A stretch of 64,000 nucleotides of DNA from a virus, in IMG/VR virus record IMGVR_UViG_3300046170_000313, positions 1-64,000 of that record; one strand, given 5' to 3'. Each line of letters starts with the position of its first letter. Position 1 is the stretch's first letter. The position numbers and the translations under genes are program-made. This document shows, in pieces, positions 38,659 through 43,326 of the stretch. The notes under the pieces were generated by a model. It was not told where the DNA came from and searched no databases. It was given only the letters and a program-made list of their open reading frames with translations.

Positions 38659-38809
38659 GTAGGTCTTTTCATGCACGCCACTTGCTCTTTTAGAGAAGCA
38701 AGAAACTCATATTAGGGTCATATGACTCCACCACACATTTTTGAGAGGAATGAGAAACTCCAGGGGTCAATGACCATCCCGACCAGGGTTTTTATAGACT
38801 CTCCATGTC

Positions 38810-39191: not shown

Positions 39192-39382
39192 GAAGCATCA
39201 TTGTTTAATATGGTGTGTATTTTTACTATTTCATCATCTGCTAGAATCATAACTGCAGTTTGCCCAGTTTTTTCGTTTTTGATTCCTATATTCTCCCCAT
39301 TTTCAACTCTTTCAATCAAAGCTTCCCAGTTATTTTGCCACTCTTCCACTGTGTAAATCTCAATAGTTGTTGTATTTATCAT
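39188..39382 (-). CDS. Phd/YefM antitoxin-like small protein
   Basis: 64 residues from ATG 39382. Layout as in Phd/YefM N-terminal domains: a short beta strand (TTIEIYTVEEW), helix WEALIERVENGENIGI, then a hairpin KTGQTAVMILADDEI. These antitoxins bind DNA and neutralise RelE/Doc toxins. No recognisable toxin partner sits next to it; the overlapping upstream gene (39360-39950) is not of a known toxin family. It may have been kept as a regulator or to counter a host toxin. Confidence 0.55.
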   Translation of the reverse strand: MINTTTIEIYTVEEWQNNWEALIERVENGENIGIKNEKTGQTAVMILADDEIVKIHTILNNDAS

Positions 39383-39950
39383 ATGATTTAAAGAATATTT
39401 TTTTATAATCGGAAATAAAATTATAGAATGCTTTTGAAGGTCTTTGAGATTTTAGATTAAATGTCAATGAAGTTGATATATGTTCTTTAGGAATAACATT
39501 TTCCAACTCGTAAACTTTTAGATAATCTATAATAAACAAAGAACAGATTTCTGGATCTAAACTTTGCATGAATAATCTCTCAAGTCTTTCCGTAGATTCT
39601 TGACAGTTTTGAGGTATTTTATAATAGTTATCAGAAAAGTCTTTGGTTTCTATTCTATTTTTTTCTATGTGGTCTTCAATCGGTGATGTATTTTTTTCCA
39701 AATAATATCTACAAAATCTTGTAAAGATATTTTCCATATAAACTGCATTATATTCTGCAACCTCATTGACATCTAGTTTAAAGTTCCAAGGCATTCCACT
39801 GAAGCAACATACGATATGTGCAATATCATGTGTCGGAGTTGTTGGAGGAACCTCATCATTATGTAAAGTTAAAACTTGATTGTCAGAATAAAAAACTTTA
39901 AAGAGTGTATTTCCTTTATCCCAAGACCAAAAAACTTCTTTTACTTCCAT
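39360..39950 (-). CDS. Unknown 196-residue protein
   Basis: Start at ATG 39950 (MEVKEVFWSWDKGNTLF). A longer open frame to 40157 runs through the tRNA-Pro gene and is not credible. Mixed alpha/beta, aromatic-rich, with DIAHIVCCFSGMPWNFKLDV and YMENIFTRFCRYYLEKN. The HDIAH region could bind metal, but no family is recognised. The 3' end overlaps the Phd-like gene by 23 nt, so the pair is probably co-expressed. Conceivably a non-classical toxin partner; no direct evidence. Confidence 0.55.
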   Translation of the reverse strand: MEVKEVFWSWDKGNTLFKVFYSDNQVLTLHNDEVPPTTPTHDIAHIVCCFSGMPWNFKLDVNEVAEYNAVYMENIFTRFCRYYLEKNTSPIEDHIEKNRIETKDFSDNYYKIPQNCQESTERLERLFMQSLDPEICSLFIIDYLKVYELENVIPKEHISTSLTFNLKSQRPSKAFYNFISDYKKIFFKSYDKYNNY

Positions 39951-39968: not shown

Positions 39969-40039
39969 TCGGGGATGCAAGAATCGAACTTGCGTTTCTG
40001 CTTCCCAAAAGCAGCGTGATACCATTTTACTAATCCCCG
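39969..40039 (-). tRNA. tRNA-Pro (UGG)
   Basis: Acceptor CGGGGAT/ATCCCCG, anticodon stem CTGCT/AGCAG with loop TTTGGGA (anticodon TGG), T-arm GCAAG-TTCGATT-CTTGC. The D arm is short. C1-G72 is as expected for Pro. CCA is not encoded. It probably belongs to the transcript from the consensus promoter at 40209-40237. Confidence 0.92.
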
Positions 40040-40136
40040 TTGACGATGGACTTATCAGTATGCTTGCTATGGGGCATCTCAACCCAACACACTGACAGTT
40101 TCGCATCGGAGTAAGACAGGGGTCCTTCCTGAATAT

Positions 40137-40179
40137 CCAAAGGGGGCTGATTCCCAACTACACCGTTGGGCACCTTTGG
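40137..40179 (-). ncRNA. Candidate structured RNA between a consensus promoter and tRNA-Pro
   Basis: The 40040-40202 stretch has no credible gene. On the minus strand it folds by eye into a two-tier hairpin: outer stem CCAAAGG/CCTTTGG (7 bp, perfect) and inner stem CCCAAC/GTTGGG (6 bp, perfect) with hexaloop GGTGTA and an asymmetric internal loop (2 and 9 bases). It starts ~25-30 nt after the predicted transcription start. It is not a tRNA: no T-loop TTCGA. It may be a leader structure, a processing signal or a small regulatory RNA. Confidence 0.45.
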
Positions 40180-40208
40180 TCGGAACGTCTCAAGTCCTCG
40201 TTGAAATA

Positions 40209-40237
40209 ATTATACTACTTCTTATGCCCCCTGTCAA
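40209..40237 (-). promoter_or_regulatory. Perfect sigma70 consensus promoter
   Basis: TTGACA (40237-40232), 17-base spacer, TATAAT (40214-40209). It drives the structured RNA region and tRNA-Pro. It lies inside the 3' end of the small membrane-protein gene, its -10 directly following that gene's stop codon. Confidence 0.88.
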
Positions 40238-40376
40238 ATGGTTCCCAGTGCTCCCATCCATAATGATGCACTGCCCACATTCCTAGGATGGGAACAAACA
40301 CAAGAAGAGAACCCATGACGCCAAGGCACCAAGGAGTGTTCATTACACCCCTAACGAACAGTTGTACGTGATTCAT
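40215..40376 (-). CDS. Small membrane protein (53 residues), unknown
   Basis: Starts at ATG 40376 (MNHVQLFVRGVMNTPW); an inner ATG at 40343 gives 42 residues. One hydrophobic segment, LGVMGSLLVFVPILGMWAV (~18-36), is a clear membrane span, followed by a His/Trp-rich tail (HHYGWEHWEPFDRGHKK). It lies 12 nt after the stop of the 46-residue gene. Such single-span mini-proteins are common among phage early genes targeting the host; function unknown. Confidence 0.6.
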   Translation of the reverse strand: MNHVQLFVRGVMNTPWCLGVMGSLLVFVPILGMWAVHHYGWEHWEPFDRGHKK

Positions 40377-41290: not shown

Positions 41291-41319
41291 ATTATAAGAC
41301 ATGTTGAAAACCTTGTCAA
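41291..41319 (-). promoter_or_regulatory. Perfect sigma70 consensus promoter for tRNA-Arg
   Basis: TTGACA (41319-41314), 17-base spacer, TATAAT (41296-41291), ending 15 nt before the tRNA 5' end. Typical of a strong host-polymerase early promoter. Confidence 0.9.
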
Positions 41320-42598: not shown

Positions 42599-42621
42599 TT
42601 TTTATGGTAGAAAGTATTTTT

Positions 42622-43326
42622 ATGTCTTGGAGATATAACGAAAACGAATTCATAGAGGCTCCTAAAGGAATTGAAGGATTTGTTTATCTCATAACAAATC
42701 TAACAAATGATAGAAAATATGTTGGTAAAAAATCTTTTTGGACAAGGAGAAAAGATAAAAAGACTGGTAGAAGAAAAACAAAAGAAAGTGATTGGAAAAA
42801 ATATTTTGGATCTTGTGATGAATTAAATGAAGATGTAAAACTTCTTGGTGAAGATAAGTTTTTGAGAGAAATACTCTACCTATGTCCTCATAAAAAATCA
42901 ATGTCTTATTATGAAACTATGGAACAATTTAAAAGAGATGTTCTAATGACTGATGATTATTATAATACAAATATTGAAGGAAGATTTTTTGTAAGTGAAA
43001 GGGCAGGAATTTATGAAGTCGTTATGAGAAACGATAAGTTCTGCGATATGAGAAGTGAAAAAATGAAAGACAAATCATACAATCCAGTATATAAAACAGA
43101 AGTCCGTGAAAAGTTTAGTAAAATGTATAAAGGTGAAGGAAATCCTATGTATGGAAAAAAACTTACTGAAGAACATAAAAAAGCACTCACAACATCAAAA
43201 AATGTAAGAGTGAGTGATGGAGAAAATACTTGGGAAAGTGTTGTATCTTATCTAAAAGAAAAGAAAATAGGACACCAAAAATATAAGAAACAATTAAAGG
43301 AAGGACTAATCTTTATTGTTAATTAG
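42622..43326 (+). CDS. GIY-YIG homing-type endonuclease with NUMOD3-like motif
   Basis: 234 residues from ATG 42622 (MSWRYNENEF). The N-terminal GIY-YIG module is degenerate: GFVYLITNLTNDRKYVGKKS (GxVY...KYVGK), then a Lys/Arg-rich segment and Glu in YYETMEQF. The C-terminal DNA-binding part has the NUMOD3-type motif GEGNPMYGKKLTEEHKKALT. Lone plus-strand gene, flanked by a late promoter, typical of free-standing phage homing nucleases (Seg type). A truncated relative on the other strand lies just beyond its 3' end. Confidence 0.85.
   Translation: MSWRYNENEFIEAPKGIEGFVYLITNLTNDRKYVGKKSFWTRRKDKKTGRRKTKESDWKKYFGSCDELNEDVKLLGEDKFLREILYLCPHKKSMSYYETMEQFKRDVLMTDDYYNTNIEGRFFVSERAGIYEVVMRNDKFCDMRSEKMKDKSYNPVYKTEVREKFSKMYKGEGNPMYGKKLTEEHKKALTTSKNVRVSDGENTWESVVSYLKEKKIGHQKYKKQLKEGLIFIVN

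Follow-up and report, generated by a model that had tools for sequence, protein, structure and literature searches.

The minus-strand segment 40042-40198 of the window (the whole 64,000-nt stretch of viral DNA that was analysed) is, as judged by comparison with related phages, a member of a conserved RNA family whose members occur in sequenced Synechococcus phages of about 10 lineages and in more than 140 IMG/VR contigs. The comparison showed a conserved RNA fold that sits in phage tRNA arrays like a tRNA and is gained or lost as a cassette. The segment probably encodes a discrete, trans-acting structured phage RNA. The following features of the window were used for the analysis (E-values of the model matches are rough due to a short calibration):

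39360-39950, minus strand: 196-aa ORF downstream of tRNA-Pro, no confident family; possibly in the same transcript as tRNA-Pro
39969-40039, minus strand: tRNA-Pro(TGG), 2 nt downstream of the RNA
40042-40198, minus strand: structured RNA cassette, type A, 157 nt; match over the full length to model R2 (152.3 bits, E 3.9e-37), this element being one of the 58 sequences inside the model
40043-40115, minus strand: 3′ module, a long irregular hairpin composed of P5, P5b (ACUGUC/GAUAAGU), P6 and P7; match to model R1 (80.6 bits, E 2.3e-18)
40108-40113, minus strand: conserved linker UACUCC (family form URCUCC), found in types A and B; its final C opens helix P5
40117-40131, minus strand: hairpin P4 with GG in the loop; 100% of cells paired and compensatory change in every pair
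40137-40179, minus strand: P2 (CCAAAGG/CCUUUGG) around P3 (CCCAAC/GUUGGG, 40153-40170); covariation given below
40182-40198, minus strand: P1, 5′ hairpin AGGAC / loop UUGAGAC / GUUCC; compensatory changes at columns 3-15 and 5-13
40209-40237, minus strand: perfect sigma-70-type promoter (-35 TTGACA at 40237-40232, 17-nt spacer, -10 TATAAT at 40214-40209)

The original prediction, made from the window alone, had described a geneless segment of about 160 nt with nested perfect stems, followed by tRNA-Pro. The tRNA was found at the expected place, and the bounds of the segment were refined to those of the conserved element. The term geneless holds insofar as no conserved reading frame runs through the segment, but short mechanical ORFs are present. 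The stems were present as described: on the plus strand, CCAAAGG at 40137-40143 faces CCTTTGG at 40173-40179, and CCCAAC at 40153-40158 faces GTTGGG at 40165-40170. These stems correspond to P2 and P3; the two-tier hairpin formed by them is, however, the middle of a larger fold, which additionally comprises one hairpin at the 5′ end, a third one and a long hairpin at the 3′ end.

The GC content of the element is 51.6% versus 37% for the window. Folded alone, the segment was modestly more stable than shuffled sequence (z -2.0, with 8 of 200 shuffled sequences equally good), so the window by itself is no proof and the case rests on comparison. Independently of model R2, blastn of the window element against Synechococcus phage S-T4 gave E-values down to 1e-36. 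In the window's own 68.8 kb virus record, one copy of the element was found with model R1.

Distribution of the RNA family

In a search of phage records by blastn, the part of the segment from 40197 to 40050 had matches in several Synechococcus phages. These were S-N03, MA01/MA10/ME01/MC09, S-T4, S-PRM1 and S-TIM5/54/61/66 as well as S-SM2, S-8S55, Syn1, S-RIM44 and S-CAM9, with a partial match in Sf-CH5/8; S-SKS1 was added as a carrier by a second query. According to record taxonomy the carriers belong to Kyanoviridae genera, Aurunvirus (S-TIM5) and Llyrvirus (S-SKS1), a patchy spread across three phage groups. In the carriers' annotation the element is mostly not represented at all, or it is covered by 'hypothetical protein' calls differing in strand and frame.

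IMG/VR contigs were collected with sequence patterns. The first pattern, from the 3′ part of the element, matched at least 119 contigs, and patterns from the 5′ part yielded additional contigs; one of the 5′-module patterns was so narrow that it matched a single locus, and a promoter-anchored pattern returned no match. The first collection pattern (a truncated motif) fixed UACUCC, ACUGUCAG and UGGGU, and their invariance in alignments A2 and A3 is therefore partly built in. The lengths of 91 distinct elements ranged from 133 to 199 nt. Sequence counts do not represent independent events, and related sequences inflate the cell counts reported for the alignments.

When 17 phage genomes were searched with model R1, one copy each was found in 10 genomes and no copy in the other seven (Syn9, S-PM2, P-SSM2, S-RSM4, S-CRM01, S-SSM7 and S-ShM2), which indicates that the RNA is dispensable. 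One copy per genome together with patchy presence fits an accessory function. No copy was found with model R1 in 386 cyanobacterial genomes, a search with strict filters and few scored candidates that gives weak evidence of absence in hosts. The single match across genome contigs of 84,980 species, in Oscillatoria L131, was attributed to chance, as the 3′ half of the motif is absent; model R1 found nothing in that genome.

Consensus structure and covariation

Covariation was evaluated for 48 pairs in A2, an alignment of 58 non-redundant type A elements. The order of the predicted helices from 5′ to 3′ is P1, P2 enclosing P3 and the variable hairpin P3a, P4, the linker URCUCC, and P5-P5b-P6-P7. 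Of the A2 cells 94.5% were paired, compared to 85.6% after shuffling. Double changes occurred in 24 pairs and amounted to 240 cells versus 79 ± 6 in shuffled alignments, while slid registers reached at most 41, and the covariation score was attained by none of 500 shuffles. An independent run of RNAalifold gave 14 pairs with double changes. Compensatory base-pair change, the criterion for a structured noncoding RNA, is present in the family. The original prediction had named conservation and covariation in relatives as its check, and both were observed, in several phage genera and more than 140 contigs and as strong compensatory change, respectively.

The individual helices contribute to a different extent. 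P3 showed 9 double changes at columns 31-67 and 31 at columns 32-66; P2 is mostly invariant, with double change in two pairs; P5 and P6 covary in A2. The invariance of P5b and P7 in A2 is partly due to the search pattern, which fixed one strand, and compensatory changes in these helices were found in sequences collected free of the pattern, namely CUGUUAG/CUAAUAAG in L152 and UUAGGU/GCCUA in L156. Invariant nucleotides are located in the P1 loop (UUGAGA in all 58 sequences; type A form UUGAGAY), the linker and helix P5b. The linker was part of the first search pattern, yet it varies (UGCUCC) among pattern-free matches.

Three further candidate features were considered. A pseudoknot between the GG of the P4 loop and the CC of J3/2 in type A was suggestive, but a slid register scored better and the pseudoknot is not claimed. 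The P1-loop GAG may pair with the linker CUC, in mostly invariant sequence. A similarity between UGUUGGGUUUAA and a 16S rRNA helix was dropped, since this sequence varies freely in relatives and rRNA models gave no match. In some elements (L008, L013, L022, L027 and L037) the 3′ module contains an extra hairpin of about 15-25 nt, and P3a alternates among several unrelated hairpins; this variation suggests an exchange of peripheral parts.

A second type of element, type B, carries another 5′ module on the 3′ module common to type A. The type B 5′ module comprises a hairpin with the loop UGAG and the helices ACGGUG/CACUGU and GAGAGU/ACUCUC. The 3′ module was present in 16 of 18 new type B loci, the remaining two being cut by the contig end. 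The type B loops UAACC and GGUUA are complementary and almost invariant. For the nucleotide that follows UGAG and the one that precedes CUCC, the combinations were U/A in seven cases, U/G in three and C/G in one, all of which can pair. Both 5′ modules have a first loop containing UGAG and a loop containing GG before the linker, and on the basis of these shared motifs they may be distant homologues.

Setting among tRNA genes and interpretation

The element was always found on the strand of the tRNAs. The upstream tRNA ends 1-4 nt before it in 103 of the 118 elements with upstream sequence, and the downstream tRNA starts 0-2 nt after it in 105 of the 117 with downstream sequence. Gaps between neighbouring tRNAs within the same loci are 0-4 nt, so the spacing of the RNA is that of a tRNA. 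Most copies are located in the middle of an array with tRNAs on both sides and without a promoter of their own, and the tRNA that follows varies between copies (Leu, Thr, Val, Asn, Gly, Pro and others). Empty sites were represented by 11 contigs in which tRNA-Met and tRNA-Leu lie 2 nt apart without the element, and occupied sites by 15 loci with the element between matching tRNA-Met and tRNA-Leu genes.

The TTGACA-17-TATAAT promoter of the original prediction was in place on the minus strand. Transcription is predicted to start at about position 40202 (A), approximately 4 nt 5′ of the structured RNA, and from the sigma-70 consensus we infer that the promoter belongs to the early class. Two perfect TTGACA-16/18-TATAAT sites are present in the 64-kb window versus 0.11 expected, a number reached in none of 100 shuffles of the window, and both precede tRNA transcription units. 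The second site is located at 41291-41319 on the minus strand, about 14 nt before tRNA-Arg. All 15 elements without an upstream tRNA, the window's included, have a TATAAT-type -10 at a fixed short distance, most of them with TTGAC(A) 17 nt further up, and the -10 distance is kept across several unrelated upstream contexts. One type B copy (L164) has the -10 as in promoter-proximal type A copies. The long untranslated leader of the original prediction applies to this promoter-proximal subset only, and not to the majority of relatives, which lie mid-array. Taken together, the flush tRNA spacing, the fixed -10 and the empty and occupied sites show that the RNA is a discrete cassette, whose boundaries are known with a precision of 2-3 nt.

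No protein gene accompanies the RNA in all cases. In the window, a 53-aa ORF (40215-40376, minus strand) overlaps the promoter with its 3′ end, and the DNA around the end of this ORF (GCACTGGGAACCATTTGACA) recurs 5′ of the element in several other contigs. A gene for a SegE-type GIY-YIG endonuclease with a NUMOD3 motif (42604-43326, plus strand; PF19835, E 9.7e-38) lies at a distance of about 1.3 kb to tRNA-Arg. The RNA of Synechococcus phage MA01 is directly followed by a gene for an HNH endonuclease (L010 1777-2307), which was not seen in S-N03. The window also contains a wcaG RNA (RF01761, 51.5 bits; 38667-38762, minus strand) just 5′ of a mannose-6-phosphate isomerase-type cupin gene, which is followed by genes for GDP-mannose 4,6-dehydratase and an epimerase, the ordinary wcaG setting.

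Given the fold and the tRNA setting, a discrete RNA processed along with the tRNAs is the simplest reading. The RNA would be transcribed either from its own sigma-70-type promoter, as in the window, or as a unit of a polycistronic tRNA transcript, and its ends would result from tRNA maturation. The 3′ end would be left by the RNase P cut at the 5′ end of the downstream tRNA, and the 5′ end would be generated by trimming of the upstream tRNA or by a transcription start located 3-4 nt upstream. In this way, a stable RNA about 145-200 nt long would be released along with the phage tRNAs. More speculatively, the folded RNA might bind or occupy a host component while the phage takes over the cell; translation or RNA processing is tentatively suggested as the site of its target. 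Conservation and covariation support the original prediction, which was a small phage RNA so far unrecognised and transcribed together with tRNA-Pro, and the flush position of the tRNA fits co-transcription.

The constant tRNA strand, the distance of a few nucleotides to the tRNAs and, in 15 elements, the position directly after a promoter would also suit a cis-acting element of the tRNA transcript, i.e. a put-like antitermination signal or a processing signal without a separate RNA. However, most copies are flanked by tRNAs on both sides, the identical tRNA pair occurs in arrays devoid of the element, and the identity of the next tRNA varies, which renders a cis-acting signal quite unlikely. 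An antisense small RNA comparable to cyanobacterial Yfr1 was considered because both types keep URCUCC between P4 and P5 and this motif is complementary to Shine-Dalgarno sequences of the GGAG type, so that it could pair in single-stranded form with ribosome-binding sites. Its CUC can also form internal pairs with GAG, a conserved part of the P1 loop, though, and a 6-nt seed leaves most of the RNA unexplained; such a role is considered unlikely. The RNA could also be a decoy that engages a host tRNA enzyme or an anticodon nuclease: it travels with tRNAs, and P1 of type A resembles an anticodon arm, with a 5-bp stem and a 7-nt loop, UUGAGAY, that is invariant in 58 sequences and has U, as is usual, in the second position of the loop. 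Against this, the type B loop is the shorter UGAG and not a 7-nt anticodon-like loop, and tRNA models gave no match on the element, leaving the decoy with a slim chance.

With z -2.0 only, the single-sequence fold would be compatible with an ordinary untranslated leader or with chance hairpins devoid of function. This is contradicted by the covariation, and also by cross-genus conservation and fixed spacing, and can hardly be the case. A short peptide gene, to which the 'hypothetical protein' annotations in S-TIM5, S-SM2 and Syn1 might point, was rejected as highly improbable for want of a common reading frame: those calls disagree in strand and frame, a frame is open in at most 27 of 91 elements, whichever frame is chosen, and the element lengths fall into all three classes modulo 3. 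The discrete RNA processed with the tRNAs stays the preferred reading. It is possible, although rather doubtful, that it represents a new phage RNA class with tRNA-pathway biogenesis, which would disarm or redirect a host RNA or translation machine (e.g. a tRNA-targeting defence) and would move as a tRNA-slot cassette between unrelated cyanophages.

Comparison with known structured RNAs

Marine cyanophages are abundant and well studied. The RNA is nevertheless absent from Rfam 15, though it is carried by the long-sequenced isolates S-SM2, Syn1 and S-TIM5. A search of the window's element and a type B element against Rfam 15 at lax thresholds (E up to 10) returned the flanking tRNA and chance-level matches only. 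Neither of them was matched by the GOLLD covariance model, be it at the gathering threshold or with E up to 10, and the covariance models of 6S, RNase P, Yfr and all other Rfam 15 families gave no match to the element. ARAGORN and the Rfam tRNA model called the flanking tRNAs only and did not recognize the element as tRNA or tmRNA. No description of the RNA was found in the literature searched; a 2017 list of 224 structured RNA motifs lay outside that search.

In the tRNA cluster of phage T4, the stable RNAs C and D are small non-tRNA RNAs inside the tRNA transcript, to which the new RNA may be comparable. The structured RNAs wcaG, manA, glnA and PhotoRC-II of T4-like cyanophages have been described as cis-regulatory and located before protein genes (PMC2864571, PMC9964418, PMC10665884). 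The new RNA, in contrast, is placed between tRNA genes and is followed by tRNAs; unlike a cis-regulatory mRNA leader or riboswitch, it has a tRNA and no protein gene within 2 nt downstream in 105 of 117 elements.

GOLLD is a structured RNA of phages and prophages that is often found near tRNA islands; its function is unknown, its 3′ region is conserved and its 5′ region variable, and it is often longer than 800 nt and forms nanocages (PMC12286853). ROOL is likewise encoded by phages and prophages, often near tRNA islands, was non-essential where tested and measures 659 nt in the form studied (PMC12286853). The new RNA shares with both the location in or beside phage tRNA arrays, and with GOLLD also the phage-borne structure with a conserved 3′ part and a variable 5′ part. 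It differs from GOLLD in its length of 133-199 nt (91 elements), below the several hundred nucleotides by which that class is defined, and in the lack of a sequence match; compared to ROOL it is several times shorter and has no sequence or covariance match. With natural pairs of arrays that contain or lack the element, the role of non-tRNA RNAs in phage tRNA arrays can be tested in cultured Synechococcus. At about 150 nt and in single copy, the RNA offers a small and tractable counterpart to GOLLD and ROOL for phage tRNA islands.
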